64,000 nucleotides of DNA from assembly GCA_903913215.1 (NCBI GenBank), contig CAIWKE010000027.1, forward strand, positions 1-64,000. Direction: 5' to 3'. A model generated the notes under the pieces. The model saw nothing but the letters and a program-made list of their open reading frames with translations. It had not been told where the DNA came from and did not search any database. The translations under genes and the position numbers were made by a program. The stretch comes from an uncultured Holophagaceae bacterium. GTDB lineage: Bacteria; Acidobacteriota; Holophagae; Holophagales; Holophagaceae. Positions 37,755-50,623 of the stretch are shown one piece after another; positions within the stretch are counted from its first letter, which is position 1; each line of letters opens with the position of its first letter.

Positions 37755-38843
37755 ATGATCCAGATCCAGCCCTCCACCCATCCCGCCAGCGCCGAGGAAC
37801 GGGCGCAGCGCATGACGAATCCGGGCTTCGGCCGCATCTTCACCGATCACATGGTGGTGGTCCCCTACAAAGAGGGCGAAGGCTGGGGCAAGGGTGTGCT
37901 GAAGGCCTACGGGCCCATCGAGATGGATCCCGCCGCCTCGGTGCTGCACTATGGCCAGGCCATTTTCGAGGGCTTCAAGGCCTACAAGCAGCAGGACGGC
38001 AGCATCGCCACCTTCAGGCCTGAGGCCAATTCACGGCGTTTCAACACCTCCGCTGCGCGCCTGGCCATGCCTGACCTGCCCGAGGCCATCTTCCTGGAGG
38101 CCGCCAAGGCGCTCATCACTCAGGACCAGGCCTGGGTGCCTGGCGCTGTGGGCGAGAGCCTCTACATGCGCCCCCTCATGATCGGCACCGAGGCGGCCCT
38201 GGGCGTGCGGCCCAGCAACGAATACCTCTTCATCCTCATGGCCAGCCCCAGCGGCGCCTACTTCCCGGCCGGTGTGAAGCCCGTGACGGTCTGGATCTCC
38301 GATGACTACGTCCGCGCGGCTCCCGGCGGCACAGGTTTCGCCAAGTGCGCTGGCAACTACGCTGCCAGCCTCGTGGCTCAGCACCAGGCCAAGGGCGAGG
38401 GCTGTGACCAGGTGGTCTGGCTGGACGCGGTGACCCGCAACTACATCGAAGAGATGGGCGGCATGAACATGTTCTTCGTCTATCAGGAGAACGGTGTCAC
38501 CACCATCGCCACGCCTGAGCTCACGGGCACCCTGCTGCCGGGCATCACGCGTGACAGCCTCCTCCAGCTGGCCCGGGAGCTGGGCTATCGCGCCGAGGAA
38601 CGCAAGATCACCGTGGATGAGTGGCGCGCCGCCATCAAGTCCGGTCGCATGACCGAGGTCTTCGCCTGCGGCACCGCTGCGGTCATCACCCCCGTCGGCC
38701 ACGTGAAGTCCAAGCGCGGCGAGTGGAGCATCAACAAGGGCGAGACCGGCCCCGTGGCTGCGCGGCTCCGCGAGGCGCTGCTCAACCTCCAGCACGGCCT
38801 CGCACCGGACACTCATGGCTGGATGAAGAAGATCGTCGGCTAA
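37755..38843 (+). CDS. ilvE: branched-chain amino acid aminotransferase
   Basis: IlvE transfers the amino group in the last step of valine, leucine and isoleucine synthesis. The 362-residue protein has YGQAIFEGFKAYKQQDG, FRPEANSRRFN, the PLP-lysine region GGTGFAKCAGNYA and EEMGGMNMFFVY, as in fold-type IV class II BCATs. It lies just after the MocR gene. Its stop overlaps the stop of the convergent kinase by 4 bp. Confidence 0.95.
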   Translation: MIQIQPSTHPASAEERAQRMTNPGFGRIFTDHMVVVPYKEGEGWGKGVLKAYGPIEMDPAASVLHYGQAIFEGFKAYKQQDGSIATFRPEANSRRFNTSAARLAMPDLPEAIFLEAAKALITQDQAWVPGAVGESLYMRPLMIGTEAALGVRPSNEYLFILMASPSGAYFPAGVKPVTVWISDDYVRAAPGGTGFAKCAGNYAASLVAQHQAKGEGCDQVVWLDAVTRNYIEEMGGMNMFFVYQENGVTTIATPELTGTLLPGITRDSLLQLARELGYRAEERKITVDEWRAAIKSGRMTEVFACGTAAVITPVGHVKSKRGEWSINKGETGPVAARLREALLNLQHGLAPDTHGWMKKIVG

Positions 38844-41800
38844 AAGCCTAAGATCGTCGATTTCGGCTTGATGCCGAGGTCGGCGATCTTCTGGTCGACC
38901 TCTTTCAGGCTGAAGGGCTTGCGCAGGCTGGTGGCCTCAGGATGCTGGGCCAGCAGGGGGGCGATCTCCAGTTCGCTGTAGCCCGTGGCCATGATGACGG
39001 GCAGGCCGGGATAGAGGGCCAGGATCTGGGGCAGGGTCTCGGCTCCGCTCATGCCGGGCATGTTCATGTCGAGGATCACCAGGTCCATGCTGGCGTCCAG
39101 AGCCAGGGTTCTCAGGGCGAACTCGCCGCCGGGGGCCGTCTCCACTGAGTGGCCCAGGGCCTCGAGCATGGGGGCCACCGCTTCCCGGATGAGGTCGTCG
39201 TCGTCCACCAGCAGGATCTTCAGGTAGGGGGAGGCGGCGATCACGGGTACTGCGATCGCCTGGGCCTGGTCGGCCCGGGCCACCTTGCGACTGGCCGGGA
39301 AGCAAAGTCTCGCTTCGGTCCCGATGCCCGGTTCGCTGTGCAGCTCCAGGGCACCCTCATGGGCCTTCATGGTGCCGTAGACCATGGCCAGGCCCAGCCC
39401 GGTGCCCTTGCCCTGGGGCTTGGTGGTGAAGAAGGGCTCCATGGCCTTGGTGAGCACCTCGGGGGTCATGCCTTCGCCGCTGTCGCGGACGCGGAGGATC
39501 AGGGAATCCTCCGGGCCTCGTCCGGTGGCCACGAGGAGGCTGCCACCGGTGGGCATGGCGTCCATGGCGTTCACGCAGAGGTTCATGAGGGCGTGGCCTA
39601 GGGCGCCGCCATCCGCCATTACCTGGTCCAGGCCCTCGTCCAGGTCCAGCACCAGCTTGATCTGCTTAGGCAGCGTGTGCGCGAGGAGCTGGCAGATGTC
39701 CCGGGCGATCTCGTTGAGGTCTGAGGGGCGTTCCTCCTGCAGGTCCTTTTGCGCGAAGTAGAGGAGGCTCTTCACGGCGTCCCGGCCCCGGAGGCAGGCA
39801 CTGATGATGGTATCGAGGTTCCGGGCCGAGGCCGTTCCGGGGGCGGCCTCCAAGTGCAGGGTGGAAGCCAGGCCCAGGATGGCGCCCATGACGTTGTTCA
39901 TGTCATGGGCCACGCCCCCCGCCAGACTGCCCAGGCTCTCCAGCTTCTGGGACTGCTGCAGCTGGGCTTCCAGGAGGCGCCGCTCCTCCCGGGCCACCTT
40001 GATGCTGGAGATGTCCTCCTTGATGGCGATGAAGTTCGTGAGGACACCGGCCAAGTCCCGCACCGGGGCGATGGTCTCGCGCTCGTGGAAAAGATTGCCG
40101 TCCTTCTTGCGGTTCTGGAACTCACCGCGCCAGACCTCACCCCGGGCCAGGGTTTCCCACATGGCACGGTACTGCTCCGGCGGCGTCTTCCCGGACTTCA
40201 GGATGCGGGGGTTGCGGCCAATGGCCTCCTGGGCGGAGAAGCCGGTGACTGCGGAGAAGCCAGGATTCACGTATTCGATGGTGCCGTGGGGATCCGTGAT
40301 CACAATGGAAAGCGGGCTCTGCTCCACGGCCACCGAGATCTTCCGGAGGGAGGCCTCCACCAGCTTCCGCTCTGTGATGTCCTGGATGACGCCGATGAGC
40401 ACGACGGGACGGTCTTCGGAGTCATATTGGATCTCACCCTGGCCATGTACCCAGCGGCGGGCCCCATCTAAGACTCGCTGGATGGGATAGTCCAGGGCGA
40501 AACGCTCATGGCGTTCAATTATGCCCAGCACGTAGTGGTTCATCTGCCCCCGGAAGTCCGGGTCCACGAGGTTGGTCCAGCCCTGCAGATCCTTTGGGTA
40601 GTCCGGGCCGATGCCGAAGATTCGGTCCAGGTTGGGGCTGCTGGTCCAGAGGTCCTCCTGGATGAACCAGGTGTAGATCCCGACGCCGCCAGCCTCCTGA
40701 GCCTCCAGGAGGAACCGCTCACTCTCCCGCAGTGCACCTTCGGTCTCCAGCCGTCGCCCCGCCTCGGCCAGGTGGTCCAGGGCGTAGGAGATCTCGGTGG
40801 CGGCCTCCTCCAGCAGGGCCGCCTCGTGGACGCCAAAGAACTCCTTCTCGGTGGCATACACCGCCAGGGCCCCGCGGATCTGGCCTCCCTGACTGATGGG
40901 GAAGGCGGCCACGGAGGCCAGACCGGACTGGGCCAGCTCCTTCAGCCAGGCATTGGCCTCGGGCGTGAGCATGAAATCGTTCAGGATGCAGGGACAGCCC
41001 AGGCGGATGGCGGAGCCCATGGCGCCCTGGCCCTCGGGGCTGTCATCGCTGCGGATGACGGCGTGGTCGAGGACGCCCAAGACATCACCGCAGCGGGCGG
41101 CGACCTGCACCACATGGGTGGCAGGGTCATCCCAGCCGATCCAGGCCATGGCGAAGCGCCCGTGTTGAACCATGACCTGGCAGACCCGGTCGAAGAGCTG
41201 CTGGCGGTCCGTGGCGCGCACGATGGCCTGGTTGACCTGGCCCTGGGCGGCGTACATCTGGGTCATGCGCTGCAGTTCCCGCTGCTGGGCTCGGCGCTCG
41301 GTGATGTCCCGGATGAAGCAGATCATCTTCAGCTCGCCGCCGGCCTCCAGGCAGCGGGCGCTGATCTCCACCGGGAAGACGGTGCCATCCCGGTGCTGGT
41401 GGAGGGCCTCGAACTGCTGGGAGCCCGCCTGCCGTACAAGACTGAACTGATCCAGGGCCGAGGCCCGGACCCCGGCGGGACGCAGGTCCAGGAAGCTCAT
41501 GGCCTGCAGTTCCGCCAGGCTGAAGCCATATTGCACCTCGGCTTGGGCATTGGCCTCGATGATGCGGCCTTGGCCGTCCAGGAGGAGGACCATGTCATTG
41601 GCCTCCCGCATGAGCCAAGCGTAACGTTCCGCAAGCTCCAGTTGCTCCCGTGCCGCGGCGGTGTCGCGGTCCCGGAGCCGGAGGCCCAGGCCTGCGGCCA
41701 GGAGGGTCAGCAGGCCCAGCATGGCCAGGCTGCCGACCCAGACGCGCTCCCGAAGCGGGCCGAACACCTCAGCTTCGTCCACCCGGCTCTGAAGGGTCCA

Positions 41801-43186
41801 GGGTGTGCCCGGAATGGCGCGGCGAACCTCCAGTACTGCGCCGCCCCGGCTGCTGGATGACGGGTTGCTCAGGTAGCGCAGGTCTTGGCCCTCGCCGCGG
41901 GTCAGGACCGTCTCGGCGCTGGGGCTGGGGTTTGGCCAGGACTGCACCAGGGGAAAAAGGCTCCGGCGAGGATCGATCATGAGGAGCAGGGCGCCATCGG
42001 CCTTGGCCTCAAGTGCCGGGTTCGCCCCGGGCCGGGGCAGGGCCCGGATGGGAATCCAGATGCCGAGGTAGAGGTTTGGATGATCCGCGTGCTCGTGCAG
42101 GTCCCTGACCCAGACTTCCCGGGCCTGCAGGGCGATCTGAACTTCTTCCTGGTTGGAGCGCTCCTGCTCCAGATCCCGCTGTTCGGGGACCGCGATCCGT
42201 TCGTGGCTCAGGGCATCGAAGAGCGCCACCCTCTGGTAGCCCTGCTTCTGCAGTTCCGCCAGCCAGCTCCGGAGTTGGGCCTCCGGCGGTGCCTGCGCGG
42301 CCCCAGTGAGGTAGCGGTGCAGCTGGTCCTGGAGGAGGGCGCTGGCGAGTACCAGCTGGGCGTCGCTGCGGCGCTCTGCGGTCCAGTCGGCGATCTGGTG
42401 GGCCTTGAGGTCGGCGATGGTGCTGAGGGATTCGAGGGCCTGGCCCCGGGTGGCCTGGAGCTGACTCCGCAGCAGCAGGGATCCCCCGCCGAGCACCAGG
42501 ACGGAAAAGGCCAGGAAGAGGGCGAGGCCACGAAGGGAAGGCACCCGGCCGCTGTGGCCGACGACCTGGGACCTGTGGGAGAAGGTGGCCAGGGGCCAAG
42601 TATCCCAGCCCGCTCGCAGCAGGAGGACGAGGCCGAAACCCACGGCGCAGAAGGCGGCCAGGAGGGACATGGGGGTGCGTCCGGACCCGTAGAGGGAGGG
42701 TGCCCCGGCGGCGAAGCTGACCAACACCAGGCCACCGATCACCAGGGGGACTAGGCCCAGGACGGCGGCCAGCTGCCGTCGCAGCCAAGGCAGAGGCCGG
42801 AGGCTCCGGGAGCAGAGGGCGGAACAGGTGCCGCACAGGATCGCCAGAAACGTGAGGGGCTGCAGGGGAGTAGGGTGGAGCAGCAAGCTGGCCAGGGTCG
42901 CCAGGATCAGGGCCAGGGTGAGGGTCTGGGCCAGCCGGTGGAGCAGGCGGGAGTCCCGGCGGAACTCTCCCGCCACGGTCACGACCACGAAAAGGAACAG
43001 GATCACCGAAGCTAGCGGAGACAGCCCCACCCAGTCCAGGCGGAGAGGCGTGGACGACCAGCCTGCCACCTGAGAGGTCACCAAGGCCAGGCCAGCCAGG
43101 CAGGTGGCCCCGAGGGACGCGGCCCGCCGCATCCCCCAGGGATCCTCCGGTGGCAAGGTGTCTTGCCTCTGGAACAAGCCAGTCAT
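38840..43186 (-). CDS. hybrid sensor histidine kinase, 1448 residues
   Basis: Domains in order: seven or so N-terminal hydrophobic helices (about 20-245), an extracytoplasmic sensor (about 246-485), a helix, PAS (about 525-640), GAF (655-810), two PAS domains with PAC ends (DITERK) to about 1070, HisKA with GGVAHDMNNVMGAILG, and HATPase with VNAMDAMPTGGSLL and GKGTGLGLAMVYG. A receiver (VDDDDLIR, ILDMNMPGMSG, LRKPFS) ends the protein. It probably senses an external signal and several internal ones. The output partner is unknown. It is unusually large and converges on ilvE. Confidence 0.93.
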   Translation of the reverse strand: MTGLFQRQDTLPPEDPWGMRRAASLGATCLAGLALVTSQVAGWSSTPLRLDWVGLSPLASVILFLFVVVTVAGEFRRDSRLLHRLAQTLTLALILATLASLLLHPTPLQPLTFLAILCGTCSALCSRSLRPLPWLRRQLAAVLGLVPLVIGGLVLVSFAAGAPSLYGSGRTPMSLLAAFCAVGFGLVLLLRAGWDTWPLATFSHRSQVVGHSGRVPSLRGLALFLAFSVLVLGGGSLLLRSQLQATRGQALESLSTIADLKAHQIADWTAERRSDAQLVLASALLQDQLHRYLTGAAQAPPEAQLRSWLAELQKQGYQRVALFDALSHERIAVPEQRDLEQERSNQEEVQIALQAREVWVRDLHEHADHPNLYLGIWIPIRALPRPGANPALEAKADGALLLMIDPRRSLFPLVQSWPNPSPSAETVLTRGEGQDLRYLSNPSSSSRGGAVLEVRRAIPGTPWTLQSRVDEAEVFGPLRERVWVGSLAMLGLLTLLAAGLGLRLRDRDTAAAREQLELAERYAWLMREANDMVLLLDGQGRIIEANAQAEVQYGFSLAELQAMSFLDLRPAGVRASALDQFSLVRQAGSQQFEALHQHRDGTVFPVEISARCLEAGGELKMICFIRDITERRAQQRELQRMTQMYAAQGQVNQAIVRATDRQQLFDRVCQVMVQHGRFAMAWIGWDDPATHVVQVAARCGDVLGVLDHAVIRSDDSPEGQGAMGSAIRLGCPCILNDFMLTPEANAWLKELAQSGLASVAAFPISQGGQIRGALAVYATEKEFFGVHEAALLEEAATEISYALDHLAEAGRRLETEGALRESERFLLEAQEAGGVGIYTWFIQEDLWTSSPNLDRIFGIGPDYPKDLQGWTNLVDPDFRGQMNHYVLGIIERHERFALDYPIQRVLDGARRWVHGQGEIQYDSEDRPVVLIGVIQDITERKLVEASLRKISVAVEQSPLSIVITDPHGTIEYVNPGFSAVTGFSAQEAIGRNPRILKSGKTPPEQYRAMWETLARGEVWRGEFQNRKKDGNLFHERETIAPVRDLAGVLTNFIAIKEDISSIKVAREERRLLEAQLQQSQKLESLGSLAGGVAHDMNNVMGAILGLASTLHLEAAPGTASARNLDTIISACLRGRDAVKSLLYFAQKDLQEERPSDLNEIARDICQLLAHTLPKQIKLVLDLDEGLDQVMADGGALGHALMNLCVNAMDAMPTGGSLLVATGRGPEDSLILRVRDSGEGMTPEVLTKAMEPFFTTKPQGKGTGLGLAMVYGTMKAHEGALELHSEPGIGTEARLCFPASRKVARADQAQAIAVPVIAASPYLKILLVDDDDLIREAVAPMLEALGHSVETAPGGEFALRTLALDASMDLVILDMNMPGMSGAETLPQILALYPGLPVIMATGYSELEIAPLLAQHPEATSLRKPFSLKEVDQKIADLGIKPKSTILGF

Positions 43187-43407
43187 TTCCGAACCATTCC
43201 TCTTAGTTCGGCTCGAGCCGCCGGGAAGTGGTGTTCAGCACCCGATTTGCGCCGCCCATGTGATGAAGGTCACACACGTGTCGTCAATAACTTTCCACCC
43301 TACGGGGACCGCCGATGAACTAGAGGTGTCGAGTTGGGGAAGACCTTGCCCAGTCGCATGGGTGATGAATGCAGATTAGAAAAAAAAGATAAATCCATGG
43401 AGGATCC

Positions 43408-43668
43408 ATGCTCACCAACCTGAAGATCGGCACTCGGATGGCTGTCGGCTTTTCGCTGATCCTGGCCTTGCTGCTGGTCATCACAGGGCTCGGCATCAAC
43501 CGCATGGGCAGTCTGGCGGCGAACACGGACGAAACTGTCACCCGTGCCCCTAAGACCAGCCGCCGACAGTCGCCCCGGCCGGAACTGGCTGCGGCCAAGA
43601 AGCCCATGGCCACGCCCGCGGGCGATGACGATGGTCAGTGGGAGGCCTTCTCGGGCTCCCAGGTATGA
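43408..43668 (+). pseudogene. internally deleted methyl-accepting chemotaxis protein (remnant or micro-MCP)
   Basis: An 86-residue frame with GGAGG four bases upstream. Residues 1-33 are a typical MCP N terminus with TM1 (LKIGTRMAVGFSLILALLLV) and residues 56-86 look like an MCP C-terminal tail ending in GDDDGQWEAFSGSQV. That tail resembles the WE.F pentapeptide that tethers CheR and CheB. The ligand domain, TM2, HAMP and signalling hairpin are all missing, and the joint lies at about residues 43-55. The frame is preserved, so it may be a fossil or a small expressed peptide. It precedes cheW by 86 bp. Confidence 0.72.
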
Positions 43669-43754
43669 ATTGCCTTGAAAACTTGCCGATCTGATCACAC
43701 TCGCCGAAAGGGGTCTATCCCCAGCCCCCCAGGCGGGCCGTTGTGGAGAACAAC

Positions 43755-44258
43755 ATGGCCAACATTGATGCTGCAACCCAGGGACTCCAGCAGGTCCTCT
43801 GTTTCGCCCTCGCGGGCGAGGCCTATGCCCTGCCCATCCTGAAAGTTCGGGAGATCCAGGCCCAGGCCACGATCACCCGCATTCCCAAGGCCCCGTCCTA
43901 CATGCCGGGGGTCATCAACCTCCGGGGCGCCATCGTGCCGATCCTGGAACTTCGTGACCGGTTCAGCCTGGGTGTGCCGCCCGAAGACACCCGGCCGGTC
44001 ATCATCATCGTGGAAGTCCAGGGCCGCACTTTGGGGATCCGCGTGGATTCAGTGTCCGACGTGCTGGACCTGGATCCCACCGCCATCCGCCCGGCCCCGG
44101 AACTCGGGGCTCAGACGGCTCTGGGGCGGGAATTCATTGCAGGACTCGCCTCCCTGCCCGGCTCCACCGGCTCAGACACCATGCTGATCCTGTTGGACCT
44201 GGATCGACTCCTTTCGGACAAGGAACTTCTCGCGCTCGACAGCGCCGCTATGGCCTAA
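43755..44258 (+). CDS. cheW: chemotaxis coupling protein CheW
   Basis: CheW bridges receptors to CheA. The 167-residue protein has two SH3-like subdomains: VLCFALAGEAYALPILKVREI and PSYMPGVINLRGAIVPILELRDRF. The latter includes the NLRG loop that contacts CheA P5. The start ATG 43755 follows GGAG; the GTG at 43743 is less likely. It is the first intact gene of the chemotaxis operon. Confidence 0.95.
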   Translation: MANIDAATQGLQQVLCFALAGEAYALPILKVREIQAQATITRIPKAPSYMPGVINLRGAIVPILELRDRFSLGVPPEDTRPVIIIVEVQGRTLGIRVDSVSDVLDLDPTAIRPAPELGAQTALGREFIAGLASLPGSTGSDTMLILLDLDRLLSDKELLALDSAAMA

Positions 44259-44261
44259 ACC

Positions 44262-44564
44262 ATGACCACCAAGAAGGCAGCCCCCGCCCCCCGTACCCTC
44301 CCCCTGGAAGGGGATCTGGACGTGTTCTCAATCCATAACCAGTGGGAGCTCCTGCAGCCTCTGGCCCAGGGTGGGGGCCCCCTCACCCTGGATTTCAGTG
44401 CCGTGGCAGATCTGGACCTTTCGGGCCTCCAGTTGCTCGCCACCCTACGCCGGGACCTGGCCGCCAAGGGGATGCCTCTGGCCCTGGTCGGCGCCCGGGC
44501 CGATTGGTCCAAGCGCTTCGCGGTGCTGGGACTGGCCGACCTCTTCGAGGAGAAGGCTCAATGA
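44262..44564 (+). CDS. STAS-domain protein
   Basis: One hundred residues with the STAS plan: LTLDFSAVADLDLSGLQLLATL holds the DLSG motif whose serine is phosphorylated in anti-sigma antagonists. It starts 4 bp after cheW. STAS genes also occur beside MCP-like genes in several alpha-proteobacterial che clusters, so a role in tuning the next gene's product is plausible but unproved. The ATGA stop overlaps that gene. Confidence 0.88.
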   Translation: MTTKKAAPAPRTLPLEGDLDVFSIHNQWELLQPLAQGGGPLTLDFSAVADLDLSGLQLLATLRRDLAAKGMPLALVGARADWSKRFAVLGLADLFEEKAQ

Positions 44565-45634
44565 CGTCCTGGTTCCAGAGTACGCCGAAGGCTGAGCCCG
44601 TAATCGAACCCGGCCCCAGCCTTTCCCTGCCGCCGCCCACGGCTGCGGTGGAGTCCAACGACGTGCTCCAGCGCCTGGCGGCCCGCGAGGCCTCCATGCT
44701 TGAGGCCCAGGTGAACTTCCTCACGCCTGAACTGTTGCAGGTGGACAGCCTGGTGCGGGAGGCTGCGGGCACTCTGGAAGATGCCCTGAAGACCCTGAAC
44801 AAGAGCGTCACCCAGCAGCACCTCCTGGCCGGCGAGATCCAGGCCGCCATGCACGGCTCCCTACAGGGCGAAGGTGAGGGCGAATCCATGGGGGGCACCA
44901 TCATGGGCACCCTGGATGGCTTCGTGCACCACATCACCGAGATCTCCGAATCCACGGGGCTCCTGGTGGAGCAGGTGGACGAGATCCGGGAGCGATCCGA
45001 GCGCATGGAGGAGATGTTGGGTGAGCTGACGGAGATCGCCGGGCGCACCCATCTGCTCTCCCTCAACGCCAGCATCGAGGCGGCCCACGCCCGGCAATTC
45101 GGGGCGGGCTTCGCCGTGGTGGCCGGCGAGGTCTCCAAGCTGGCTGACCGCAGCACGGCGCTGAGCTCCACCATCCAGGAGCAGATCCACGGCACCCGTC
45201 AGGCCCTGGAGCGCACAGATGCCCACATGCAGTCCATTGCCAGCAAGGACATGGATGTGGCCCTGCGTTCCAAGGAGCAGGCTCAGGAGCTGGTGCAGTC
45301 CCTGCAAATCACCAACTTCATCGTGCGGGATCTGGTGGGGCAGCTGGAGGAGAACGCCGGCAAGGTGGCGCAGCAGGTGGGTCATGTGGTGCGCAGTCTC
45401 CAGTTCGAGGATCTGGTCCACCAGACCTTGGTGGCCTGCCTCAAGGAGCTGGGCAATCTGCTGGACCAGTCCCAGGCCTGGAAGGCCCTGGAGGGACGGC
45501 TGGCGGCCGGCGAGCCCCAGGGCCCGGCCTTGGCCGATCTGGAAGCGAAGCTGGTCGAGATCGAAGGCGCCCGCGTACAGTTCCGGGCGGTGAAGAGCGG
45601 CTCGCTGGCAGCGGGTGAAGTGGACCTTTTCTGA
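44561..45634 (+). CDS. soluble methyl-accepting chemotaxis-like signalling protein
   Basis: The true start is ATG 44561, overlapping the STAS stop; the longer frame lies in that gene. The 357 residues have no membrane segment. The central region has the MCP hairpin tip THLLSLNASIEAAHARQFG and VAGEVSKLADRS. N- and C-terminal coiled-coil arms flank it. There is no CheR tether at the end (SLAAGEVDLF). Its sensor input is probably the disordered N terminus or the STAS protein. It should contact CheW and CheA. Confidence 0.88.
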   Translation: MTSWFQSTPKAEPVIEPGPSLSLPPPTAAVESNDVLQRLAAREASMLEAQVNFLTPELLQVDSLVREAAGTLEDALKTLNKSVTQQHLLAGEIQAAMHGSLQGEGEGESMGGTIMGTLDGFVHHITEISESTGLLVEQVDEIRERSERMEEMLGELTEIAGRTHLLSLNASIEAAHARQFGAGFAVVAGEVSKLADRSTALSSTIQEQIHGTRQALERTDAHMQSIASKDMDVALRSKEQAQELVQSLQITNFIVRDLVGQLEENAGKVAQQVGHVVRSLQFEDLVHQTLVACLKELGNLLDQSQAWKALEGRLAAGEPQGPALADLEAKLVEIEGARVQFRAVKSGSLAAGEVDLF

Positions 45635-45648
45635 TCAGGAGCTGACTG

Positions 45649-46011
45649 ATGGCCCGTTGCATTCTCACGGTGGATGACTCAAGCACCATGCGGCAGATGA
45701 TCACCTTCACCTTGAAGGGGGCCAACTTCGATGTGGTGGAGGCCGAGGACGGCGTGCACGCCCTAGAGGTGGCGAAGGGGAGGAAGCTGGACCTGATCAT
45801 CACGGATGTGAACATGCCGCGTATGGACGGGCTGACCCTGGTGGCGCGGTTGCGGGCGCTGCCGGAGTTCAAGTTCACGCCGATCTTGGTGCTGACGACG
45901 GAGTCTGACCAGAGCATGAAGATGCGCGGCAAGGAAGCGGGGGCCACAGGCTGGATCGTGAAGCCCTTCAGCCCCGAGAAGCTTATGGATGTTGTGAACA
46001 AGGTCATCTGA
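45649..46011 (+). CDS. cheY: chemotaxis response regulator CheY
   Basis: A single receiver domain of 120 residues: TVDDSSTMRQM (acidic pocket), LIITDVNMPRMDGL (phospho-aspartate), LVLTTES (switch Thr) and GWIVKPFSPEKL (conserved Lys). CheA phosphorylates it and it binds the flagellar or pilus switch. Its N terminus is close to the fossil at 53067-53141. Confidence 0.95.
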   Translation: MARCILTVDDSSTMRQMITFTLKGANFDVVEAEDGVHALEVAKGRKLDLIITDVNMPRMDGLTLVARLRALPEFKFTPILVLTTESDQSMKMRGKEAGATGWIVKPFSPEKLMDVVNKVI

Positions 46012-46018
46012 GGTAGCC

Positions 46019-48097
46019 GTGTCCAATCCGATGGATCAATTCCGAGATGCCTTTTTTGAAGAGGCCACTGAGCTCGCCGATGGCATGGAGGCGACCCTGC
46101 TCTCCATGGACCTGACGGCGGTGGAGCCCGAGGATCTGCACACGCTGTTCCGGGCGGCCCACTCCATCAAGGGCAATGCGGCCACCTTCGGCTTTCCGGC
46201 CGTGGCCTCCTTCACGCATCAGCTGGAGAGCACTCTGGAGCCCGTGCGCCAGGGCACCCGGCCCCTCACAGATGATCTGCGGGAGATCCTGCTGCAGGGC
46301 GTGGACCTCATTCGCAGTCACCTGTTCCACGCGCGTCGGGACGAGGTCCTGCCCGAAAAGGACCAACAGGCCCAGGCCGCCCTGGTGATCAAGCTCAAGG
46401 AGGATGGCTCAGCTCCTGCGGCAGCCGTCGTGGCGGCACCTGTCGCCCCCATGGTGAGCGGGACGGGCTTCTCCATCCGCTTCGAGGCCCCCCGGGACAC
46501 CTTCCGCCGGGGCATCAACCTGGAGAGATTGTTCCGGGACCTGGCCAAGCTGGGCACTCTGCACACTTGGCCGGACCTGAGCGGGGTTCCTGCGCTGGAG
46601 CTGATGGAACCTGAGGACTGCTACCTGGCCTGGGATCTGCGCTTGGAGACCACGCGGCCCCGGGCGGATGTGGATGACGTGTTCGAGTTCGTGGCTGAGG
46701 GTGAGAACCTCCACATTGAAAACCTGCCCCAGGAGGGCGCTGTGCCCCAGCTGGGAGAGATCCTCCAGGCCGAGGCGGGCGTCAGCCCCAAGGACATCCG
46801 CGAGGCTCTGTCTCAGCAGAAGCAGCTGGGCGAGTTGCTGGTGGATATGGGCAAGGTCAAGCCTGAGGCCGTGACCAAGGCCCTGGACCAGCAGCAGAAG
46901 AAGAAGAACCAGGCCGAGGCCTCCACGGTGCGGGTGGCCACTGAGAAGATCGACCGGCTGGTGAACCTGGTGGGCGAGCTGGTGATCACCCAGGCGATGC
47001 TGACGCAGGCGAGCCAGGCGGGGCACACCATGCAGGGCGAGGAGCAGATGAGCGCGGCCCTGCTGCAGCTGGACCGACACACCCGGGAGCTGCAGGAGCG
47101 AGTGATGGGCATCCGCATGGTGCCCGTGGAGATGGTGTTCTCGCGCTTCCCGCGCATGGTGCACGAGCTGGGCAAGCAGCTGGGCAAGGACGTGGAGCTG
47201 GTGATGGAGGGGCAGGCCACGGAGCTGGACAAGACCTTCATCGAAATGCTGGTGGACCCCCTGACGCACCTGGTGCGGAACGCCGTGGACCACGGCATGG
47301 AGGAGCGGGCCGAGCGGGCCCTCACGGGCAAGCCGGCCATGGGAACCATCGCCCTGAAGGCCGCGAGCCGCGGCGGACACATCCACATCGAGGTGAAGGA
47401 CGACGGCAAGGGGCTGAACCGGGATCGTATCCTGGAGAAGGCGCTGGCCAAGGGCATGATTCAGCCCGGCGCCCGGCCCTCGGACGAGGAGCTGAACCTG
47501 CTCATCTTCGAGCCGGGCTTCTCCACGCTGGAGCAGGTCTCGGACCTCTCGGGGCGGGGCGTGGGCATGGATGTGGTGCGCCAGAACGTGCGGAGCCTGG
47601 GGGGCAGGATCGAAGTGGAAAGTCAGCCCGGGCAGGGCACGACGATCCGGCTGGTACTGCCGCTGACCCTGGCGATCCTGGACGGGCTCACGGTGCGGGT
47701 AGGGGAGGAGACCTTTGTCTTTGCCCTGGCCTCGGTGCTGGAGAGCTTCTCTCGGCTGGGCGCAGATGTGCAGACCGTGAAGGGTGACCGGGAGGTGATC
47801 AACCTGCGGGGCGAGTTCATTCCCGTGGTGCGGCTGCAGAAGCTGCTGGGCTTTGGCACTTCCGGTGAGGCAGCAGCCCGGCCCCTGCTGGTGCTGGTGG
47901 AATCCGAAGGACGTCGCGCGGCCATGGCCGTGGACGAGCTGCTGGGCCAGCAGCAGGTGGTCATCAAGAGCCTGGAGACCCACTACAAGCGCGTGGAGGG
48001 CATCTCCGGCGCCACGATCCTGGGCGATGGCCGCGTGGCCCTCATCCTTGACGTCCAGGGCCTCCTCCGCCTCGAAGCCGGCCTGGTCGAGGCATGA
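46019..48097 (+). CDS. cheA: chemotaxis histidine kinase CheA
   Basis: GTG start at 46019 after an AGG; an ATG at 46031 is possible but lacks a Shine-Dalgarno. Domains: HPt P1 with the phosphorylated histidine in AAHSIKGNAATFG (H48), a divergent P2-like region (about 160-245), a short helical linker (LGELLVDMGKVKPEAVTKAL), dimerisation (RLVNLVGELVITQAML), HATPase (NAVDHGMEERAERALTG; GRGVGMDVVRQNV) and CheW-like P5 to residue 692. The operon continues with cheR after an ATGA overlap. Confidence 0.96.
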   Translation: MSNPMDQFRDAFFEEATELADGMEATLLSMDLTAVEPEDLHTLFRAAHSIKGNAATFGFPAVASFTHQLESTLEPVRQGTRPLTDDLREILLQGVDLIRSHLFHARRDEVLPEKDQQAQAALVIKLKEDGSAPAAAVVAAPVAPMVSGTGFSIRFEAPRDTFRRGINLERLFRDLAKLGTLHTWPDLSGVPALELMEPEDCYLAWDLRLETTRPRADVDDVFEFVAEGENLHIENLPQEGAVPQLGEILQAEAGVSPKDIREALSQQKQLGELLVDMGKVKPEAVTKALDQQQKKKNQAEASTVRVATEKIDRLVNLVGELVITQAMLTQASQAGHTMQGEEQMSAALLQLDRHTRELQERVMGIRMVPVEMVFSRFPRMVHELGKQLGKDVELVMEGQATELDKTFIEMLVDPLTHLVRNAVDHGMEERAERALTGKPAMGTIALKAASRGGHIHIEVKDDGKGLNRDRILEKALAKGMIQPGARPSDEELNLLIFEPGFSTLEQVSDLSGRGVGMDVVRQNVRSLGGRIEVESQPGQGTTIRLVLPLTLAILDGLTVRVGEETFVFALASVLESFSRLGADVQTVKGDREVINLRGEFIPVVRLQKLLGFGTSGEAAARPLLVLVESEGRRAAMAVDELLGQQQVVIKSLETHYKRVEGISGATILGDGRVALILDVQGLLRLEAGLVEA

Positions 48098-48957
48098 GCA
48101 TGGCGGCACCACCCAGGCACGAGCCCCTGAGCCTGGACCGGATCCCCCTTACTGGGGAGACCTTCAAGGCTCTGCGGGATCTGCTGTATGAGCACTCGGG
48201 CATCGCCCTGGCCGAGCACAAGCTGACCATGGTCCAGTCCCGCCTGGCCAAGCGGTTGCGGGCCCTGGGCCTGCGGACCTACGAGGAATACTTCGACGAG
48301 ATCCGCAACCCTGATTCCCCGGAGTGGACCGAGTTCGTCAATGCCCTCACCACCAACCTCACCAGCTTCTTCCGGGAGGGCCACCACTTCACCAAGCTGG
48401 TGGAGCTCCTGAAGCCAGCTTACGAGTCCTCGCGCCGCATCCGCATCTGGAGCGCCGGCTGCTCCACGGGGGAGGAACCCTACACCCTGGCCATGACCCT
48501 GCTGAAGGGCTTCGGCCCCTCTACTTCCATCTCAATCCTCGCCACGGACCTGGACACCGCCGTGCTCCAGACCGCCGCCCGGGGGGTCTACCCCATGGCC
48601 CGCATCGAGGGCGTCGACGAGGCCTGGCGACGGCTGGCCTTCCAGCGGGGCACCGGCGAACAACGGGACCAGGTGCGGATCCGGCCCGAGGTGAAGAAGC
48701 TCATCAGCTTCCAGCAGCTGAACCTGCTGGATGCCAAGTGGGATCTCGAGGGGGCCCCCTTCCAGGCCATCTTCTGCCGGAACGTCATGATCTATTTCGA
48801 CAAGCCCACCCAGCGCCGGCTGCTGAGCCGCTACCACCAGCTCCTGGAGCCCGGTGGCCTGCTGTTCGTGGGGCACTCTGAGGCGCTCCTGGACAACAGC
48901 CTGGGCTTCACTTCGCTGGGCCAAACCATCTATCGCCGCAGCCTGGGGGCTCCATGA
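48094..48957 (+). CDS. cheR: chemotaxis protein methyltransferase CheR
   Basis: CheR methylates receptor glutamates with SAM. It has an N-terminal helical domain (FKALRDLLYEHSGIALAE), then a SAM-binding domain: RIRIWSAGCSTGEEPYTLAM, ILATDLDTAVLQTA and FQAIFCRNVMIYFD. Length 287 is normal. The ATGA start overlaps the cheA stop. Confidence 0.96.
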   Translation: MSMAAPPRHEPLSLDRIPLTGETFKALRDLLYEHSGIALAEHKLTMVQSRLAKRLRALGLRTYEEYFDEIRNPDSPEWTEFVNALTTNLTSFFREGHHFTKLVELLKPAYESSRRIRIWSAGCSTGEEPYTLAMTLLKGFGPSTSISILATDLDTAVLQTAARGVYPMARIEGVDEAWRRLAFQRGTGEQRDQVRIRPEVKKLISFQQLNLLDAKWDLEGAPFQAIFCRNVMIYFDKPTQRRLLSRYHQLLEPGGLLFVGHSEALLDNSLGFTSLGQTIYRRSLGAP

Positions 48958-49568
48958 GCTCCACCGCGGTGCCCATGGTCCATGGCCGGGCCTCCAAGTA
49001 CCTGGATCGCAGCTTCAACCGCCAGGCCATGAAGATCCTCCCGGGGGAGTTCTACGCCACCACCGAAGACGAGGTCATCGTCACCGTGCTGGGCAGCTGT
49101 GTGGCCGCCTGTGTGATGGACCCCATCGCCATGGTGGGCGGCATGAACCACTTCATGCTGCCGGTGAAGCAGGGGGACCGGGATCCGGACGTGTTCTTCG
49201 CGGCACGCTACGGGGCCGCGGCCATGGAATACCTCATCAACAATCTGCTTCACCTGGGGGCCCAGCGGGATCGCCTGGTTGCCAAGGCCTTCGGTGGGGG
49301 CAACGTGCTGCCGGGCATGTCCTCGGATGTGGGCGGCCAGAATGTAGCCTTCGTGCGGACCTTCCTCAGCAATGAGGGCATCCCTCTCTGGAGTGAAGAC
49401 ATGGGCGGTCCACATCCCCGCAAAGTCTACTTCTTCCCCCACACGGGTCAGGTGCTGGTGAAGCGCATGGAGCGCGCCCACAACAACACCGTCCTGAACC
49501 GCGAACTGTCCTACATCAAGGAATTCACCGGACCCTCAATGGCCGGTGAGGTGGAGCTGTTCTCATGA
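48954..49568 (+). CDS. cheD: chemotaxis protein deamidase CheD
   Basis: CheD deamidates receptor glutamines. It has the catalytic cysteine in VLGSCVAACVMD and the histidine in GGMNHFMLP, then AKAFGGGNVLPGM. Its 204 residues include an N-terminal extension of about 25. It starts within the cheR stop (ATGA). Confidence 0.94.
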   Translation: MSSTAVPMVHGRASKYLDRSFNRQAMKILPGEFYATTEDEVIVTVLGSCVAACVMDPIAMVGGMNHFMLPVKQGDRDPDVFFAARYGAAAMEYLINNLLHLGAQRDRLVAKAFGGGNVLPGMSSDVGGQNVAFVRTFLSNEGIPLWSEDMGGPHPRKVYFFPHTGQVLVKRMERAHNNTVLNRELSYIKEFTGPSMAGEVELFS

Positions 49569-50623
49569 CTTCCGAAGCGAAACGCCGTGTCCTCATCGTG
49601 GACGACAGCGCCCTGGTGCGTCAGGTACTCAGCGGCATCCTCTCCCGCCATCCCCACCTGGAAGTGGTGGGCACGGCGCAGGATCCCTACGATGCCCGGG
49701 AGCGCATCAGAGAGCTGAACCCCGACGTCCTGACCCTGGACGTGGAGATGCCGCGCATGGATGGCATCACCTTCCTGGGCAAGCTCATGAAGGGCCACCC
49801 CATGCCGGCGGTGATGCTCTCCAGCCTCACGGCCAAGGGCACGGACACGGCCCTGGACGCCCTGGCCCTGGGCGCCGTGGACGTCATCGGCAAGCCCGTG
49901 CTGGATCAGGCGGCGGGTCTGGAGGCCATGGGCGCTGAGATCGCCGAAACGGTCTACGCAGCCTCCCTGGCCCAGGTCTTCGAGCAGCGGCCCCAGGCCG
50001 CCATCCGCCCGGCCGCACTGGCCTCCCTGGCCCAGCGGGCCAAGGCCGGGCGCTCGCTCATCGCCGTGGGCTCCAGCACCGGTGGCACTGAGGCCCTGCG
50101 CCAGATTTTTGATGCCATTCCCGGCAACCTTCCCCCCATCGTCGTGGTTCAGCACATGCTCCCGGGCTTCACCAATGCCTTTGCCGAACGCCTGGATCGC
50201 AGCTCCCAGGCCCGGGTGAAAATGGCGCTGGATGGCGAGGCACTGAAACCCGGCACCGTCTACTTCGCCCCCAGTGATACTCACATGGCCGTGGCTCGGC
50301 GCGGGGCCGGCCTGGTGGCCCTGCTGAAGGGGGGTGACCGGGTCTCCCGCCACCTGCCCTCTGTGGACGTGCTCTTTGATTCCGTGGCCGATGACTGTGG
50401 CGCCCACGCCATGGGGGTGATCCTCACGGGCATGGGCGACGACGGCAGCCGGGGGCTGCTGCGCATGCGCCAGAAGGGGGCCCACACCCTGGGCCAGGAC
50501 GAGGCCAGCTGTGTGGTCTACGGCATGCCGCGGGCCGCCTGGATGCGAGGGGCGGTGGCAGAGCAGGCCGCCCTGTCCGTCATACCCAGCCGCATGGTCG
50601 CCTGGTGCGAACGCGAAAGCTGA
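49565..50623 (+). CDS. cheB: chemotaxis methylesterase CheB
   Basis: CheB removes receptor methyl groups when phosphorylated. The receiver domain (residues 1-125) has VDDSALVRQV and D59 in LTLDVEMPRMDG. The methylesterase domain has the catalytic triad: serine in AVGSSTGGTEAL, histidine in VQHMLPGFT and aspartate in GMGDDGSRGL. Length 352. It ends the che operon; the next gene is 33 bp away. Confidence 0.96.
   Translation: MTSEAKRRVLIVDDSALVRQVLSGILSRHPHLEVVGTAQDPYDARERIRELNPDVLTLDVEMPRMDGITFLGKLMKGHPMPAVMLSSLTAKGTDTALDALALGAVDVIGKPVLDQAAGLEAMGAEIAETVYAASLAQVFEQRPQAAIRPAALASLAQRAKAGRSLIAVGSSTGGTEALRQIFDAIPGNLPPIVVVQHMLPGFTNAFAERLDRSSQARVKMALDGEALKPGTVYFAPSDTHMAVARRGAGLVALLKGGDRVSRHLPSVDVLFDSVADDCGAHAMGVILTGMGDDGSRGLLRMRQKGAHTLGQDEASCVVYGMPRAAWMRGAVAEQAALSVIPSRMVAWCERES

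Follow-up and report, generated by a model that had tools for sequence, protein, structure and literature searches.

The 86-codon open frame that heads the che operon in the analysed window (a stretch of 64,000 nucleotides, contig CAIWKE010000027.1, from an uncultured Holophagaceae bacterium) is probably a fairly recent in-frame deletion remnant, that is, a pseudogene, of the MCP gene of the che locus, and not a docking micro-protein. The product of the frame is MLTNLKIGTRMAVGFSLILALLLVITGLGINRMGSLAANTDETVTRAPKTSRRQSPRPELAAAKKPMATPAGDDDGQWEAFSGSQV; the frame starts with ATG and is unbroken throughout. An internal deletion would have removed the ligand-binding, TM2, HAMP and signalling parts of a receptor of the type present at the che locus of Geothrix, the two ends would have stayed in frame by chance (one case in three), and a further mutation would have removed the stop codon after the terminal pentapeptide. 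Such a product would be unable to sense, to signal or to be methylated.

The features of the locus are collected in Table 1. An earlier, sequence-only reading had described an 86-residue frame with a Shine-Dalgarno sequence, intact across a deletion, in which the first MCP transmembrane helix is joined directly to the MCP C-terminal tail, lying at the head of a che operon. All of these points were confirmed: the start, the ribosome-binding motif and the unbroken frame are present, both ends match MCPs, and cheW and the following che genes lie downstream.

Table 1. Features of the che locus in the window (positions of the whole stretch).
Feature	Position	Strand	Basis
86-codon open frame, probable remnant of the che-locus MCP gene	43408–43668	+	homology of both ends to MCP, locus comparison
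Shine-Dalgarno GGAGG	43399–43403	+	same motif before the MCP start in most relatives
TM1, residues 12–30	43441–43497	+	best 19-residue Kyte-Doolittle mean 2.55
Deletion junction, residues 46–56, RAPKTSRRQSP	43543–43575	+	similarity borders of the two pieces
MCP C-terminal linker tail ending in QWEAF	43561–43650	+	match to MCP tails; QWEAF at 43636–43650
Run-on SGSQV and TGA after the pentapeptide	43651–43668	+	tail comparison; MCP stop lost
CRP/FNR-like palindrome TGTGATGAAGGTCACA	43259–43274	.	sole perfect TGTGAN6TCACA match in the window; conserved upstream of MCP in relatives
GCCGATGA element, possible promoter element	43311–43318	+	52 bp after the palindrome start
cheW, start probably ATG 43755, intact next gene	43743–44258	+	
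Rest of the che operon: STAS protein, soluble MCP-signal protein, cheY, cheA, cheR, cheD, cheB	44262–50623	+	all open frames
Divergent PAS/GAF hybrid histidine kinase	38840–43186	-	left border of the locus in relatives

The full-length receptor gene in related genomes

The product of the frame was matched in 24 of the 60 searched genomes. Residues 1–46 showed up to ~70–72% identity to MCP N-termini, with E-values down to ~1e-16, and residues 50–84 showed up to 66% identity to MCP C-terminal tails, with E-values down to ~1e-9. Across the 60 genomes, the matches to residues 1–49 and 37–85 are separate pieces located ~1.5 kb apart within long open frames. In six genomes of the genus to which the window belongs, Geothrix (G001, G002, G010, G018, G023 and G032), the equivalent position, flanked by the divergent hybrid kinase and cheW, is taken by a full MCP of 574–577 aa that shares both its N-terminus and its tail with the frame. 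The lack of a full-length MCP matching both ends in related genomes, named in the sequence-only reading as grounds for its refutation, was thus not observed: such receptors stand at the same locus. Chance similarity was rejected, as the syntenic gene of relatives matches both ends.

The gene order common to the relatives is: divergent hybrid histidine kinase, MCP, cheW, STAS protein, soluble MCP-signal protein, cheY, cheA, cheR, cheD and cheB. An MCP signalling core is found upstream of cheW in every locus that extends far enough. Two tandem MCPs occupy the slot in G019 and L097, and in L104 (G012) it holds a single full MCP with an N-terminus of a different type. Judged by the MCP-signal protein (72–73%), the relatives closest to the window include G019, L104 and L085. 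As the tandem pair occurs in one of these, G019, two receptors may have been present in the ancestor; in that case the deletion may have spanned ~3.2 kb, against ~1.5 kb if a single MCP was present.

The remnant shares with the Geothrix che-locus MCP (tail ...DDDGQWEAF) the locus, the N-terminus with TM1, the tail, the pentapeptide, the Shine-Dalgarno sequence and the upstream elements, and differs from it by the absence of ~490 codons (~85% of the receptor gene length) and of the stop after the pentapeptide. The missing part comprises the ligand-binding domain, TM2, HAMP and the entire signalling domain. The Pfam analysis of the 86-residue product did not reveal the MCP signalling domain (PF00015), and the N-terminal matches remained below threshold (4HB_MCP_1, 21.4 bits with a cut-off of 27 bits; TarH, 20.8 bits with a cut-off of 25.2 bits). 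Likewise, no second hydrophobic stretch was found in the tail on the Kyte-Doolittle scale, and the two-TM arrangement around a ligand-binding domain that marks a transmembrane MCP is lacking. As expected of a deletion pseudogene, relatives have an intact gene at the orthologous locus, and both of its ends are recognisable in the frame. Further down the operon, the soluble protein at 44561–45634 carries an MCP signalling domain (PF00015, 75 bits) and is kept at this position in the relatives examined.

Assembly, age and selection

The window's genome is a draft of 41 contigs (3.9 Mb, 95% complete), and the deletion state was seen in that one genome. It is conceivable, albeit unlikely, that an assembly or strain mixture produced the short form, with a full MCP in the real genome or in most cells and a deleted path in the contig. 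The draft state of the genome is consistent with such an artefact, as are the breaks of relatives' contigs in the MCP core, where paralogues hardly differ (contigs C27 and C28 of G028, which both end after 262 codons of MCP, and L086, L088 and L098), and the fact that in the window's own genome contig C14 begins and contig C16 ends inside an MCP gene. The N-terminal similarity ends at about residue 46 and the tail similarity begins at about residue 50–57. However, the junction lies in variable sequence (just after TM1 / C-terminal linker), outside the core shared by paralogues where assemblers collapse repeats. Moreover, both flanks are syntenic, none of the other contigs carries the missing ligand-binding domain, and the loss of the stop codon is a change separate from the deletion.

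A chimeric join of unrelated contig pieces was also rejected, given the synteny on either side. A move of the missing middle to another place in the genome was rejected as well, as a search with the ligand-binding domain of the G023 orthologue gave one weak paralogous match (29% identity) and no close copy in the assembly. Contig breaks inside the MCP core occur in several drafts of the genus (L075, L076, L086, L088 and L098), and MCP gene counts from such drafts are therefore probably too low.

The analysis of divergence agrees with a deletion remnant of fairly recent origin. Identity to the orthologues is 59–70% for residues 1–46 and 47–67% for the tail. Compared with each other, the relatives show 50–93% identity in the N-terminal part and 56–85% in the tail (the near-identical pair G002/G032 left out), and the retained parts of the remnant diverge much as those of the relatives do; the tail may have diverged slightly faster. 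The pN/pS values against other genomes, 0.28–0.52 for the N-terminal part and 0.23–0.40 for the tail, are not raised, with little power from just 46 and 26 codons. This pattern is compatible with a deletion that postdates the species splits, but it does not separate decay from function; unraised pN/pS is also expected of a recent deletion. No other case of the short form, without a gap between both ends, was found among 47 genomes of the same genus, and no other species carried the same deletion among 20 loci taken from genome contigs.

Pentapeptide tail, CheR and membrane topology

The sequence-only reading placed QWEAF at the end of the frame. The pentapeptide is indeed present, but the true end is QWEAFSGSQV, five codons further. 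Every such tail in the loci examined was compared: the other distinct tails (27/27) stop directly after the pentapeptide, and the window's tail alone reads on. The loss of the stop could be explained by a TAG to TCG change or by a small indel. The CheR/CheB tether is defined as an xZxxZ pentapeptide at the very C-terminus (PMC7390727). As the stop was lost and five residues were added, QWEAF is not C-terminal in the 86-residue product, and judging by its sequence the remnant's tail has the wrong end for CheR tethering.

The topology of the predicted product points in the same direction. TM1 of MCPs inserts with the N-terminus inside. If the helix keeps this native orientation, the loss of TM2 would place the tail on the periplasmic side of the membrane, apart from the cytoplasmic CheR and CheB. 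There are two K/R residues before the helix, one in the next 15 residues (plus two acidic ones there) and eight in the whole tail. The charge bias close to the helix favours the N-in orientation of the 86-residue product; inverted insertion, with a cytoplasmic C-in tail, would be possible given the eight K/R in the tail against two before the helix, and it is the weak point of the argument for an exported tail.

These results bear on the proposal, made in the sequence-only reading, that the frame displays a CheR/CheB docking peptide at the membrane. A working micro-protein that tethers CheR/CheB in this way is highly improbable. The retained frame and Shine-Dalgarno sequence are in line with it, and the charge of the tail leaves room for C-in insertion. 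The CheR of the operon also speaks for it: its closest resemblance is to Salmonella CheR (E 4e-68), and four of the six pentapeptide-contacting residues listed in PMC2577667 (R187, G188, G190 and R197) are retained, with the loop free of gaps. Pentapeptide tails thus probably matter in this genus. However, the pentapeptide of the window's frame is internal (0/27 other tails are so), the tail would be periplasmic with TM1 in the native orientation favoured by the nearby charges, the product has no signalling domain to seat it in the array near methylation sites, and no second genome carries the short form. With an internal pentapeptide and a tail that should be exported, the deletion remnant most likely does not tether CheR/CheB.

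Two further receptor genes of the same genome lie at contig borders. The MCP gene at the end of contig C16 (L024) runs off the contig, and its C-terminus is missing. The receptor on contig C14 (L065 1–3141) is very long, has many tandem HAMP-like repeats and ends in EWESF, followed by a second cheW; a similar gene is present in G015 (L084). Among the MCP genes of this genome with readable ends, the C14 receptor has the only other pentapeptide tail, and adaptation may therefore rest on a different receptor than in relatives.

Probable upstream control region and comparison with truncated receptors

Palindromic boxes similar to that of the window are located 107–220 bp before the MCP start in eight other loci, and (G)CCGATG recurs at ~50 bp after the palindrome in most relatives. 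Proteins of the CRP family are encoded in the window's genome. This region, between the divergent hybrid kinase and the che operon, is conserved across Geothrix and probably serves to control one of the two or both. We do not claim a sigma-28 promoter for TAAC...GCCGAT, since the spacing in the window is longer than the consensus allows and conservation is limited to GCCGATG. The control region and the Shine-Dalgarno sequence would have remained in front of the remnant because they are part of the downstream che operon.

The retained frame, the good Shine-Dalgarno sequence and the coding-like GC3 (~0.8) speak against decay to the extent that they make translation possible. Further points against it are the pN/pS values, which show no relaxation of constraint, and the occurrence of the short form in a single genome. 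A translated leader that helps cheW and the later operon genes to be expressed, with a product that has no role, would suit the first-gene position behind a conserved control region and Shine-Dalgarno sequence. However, 86 nt separate the remnant's stop from the likely ATG of cheW, which has its own SD-like GGAG, making tight translational coupling unlikely, and we regard this explanation as quite improbable.

As ordinary gene decay, the deletion matters little: it would add one more species without a receptor heading the che operon, the operon being kept. Should it be expressed and have a function, the remnant would represent a chemoreceptor derivative that kept a role despite extreme reduction. 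Broken receptor genes are known from Campylobacter, where tlp25 has a very large internal deletion and a Tlp2 is truncated after 80 aa (PMC6433261). Like the remnant, these genes carry a large internal deletion or a truncation and are expected to be non-functional; they belong to a different phylum, and a further difference is that the frame of the remnant is open from TM1 to the tail. A second parallel is Tls, which arose from Trg by truncation in E. coli B2 strains and which sequesters FlhDC and controls flagellar genes (PMC12623472). The remnant could be an expressed micro-protein that spans the membrane once and, if the tail is cytoplasmic, competes for CheR/CheB, or it could act on motility in some other way, as Tls does, though we give such a new role only a very slim chance. 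The Tls example shows that truncated MCPs can be repurposed, and the chance of function is therefore not zero. Both are MCP leftovers, and Tls was long taken for a pseudogene; Tls differs from what is known of the remnant in that it keeps part of the cytoplasmic domain, has a new N-terminus, is conserved across a phylogroup and has a demonstrated function.
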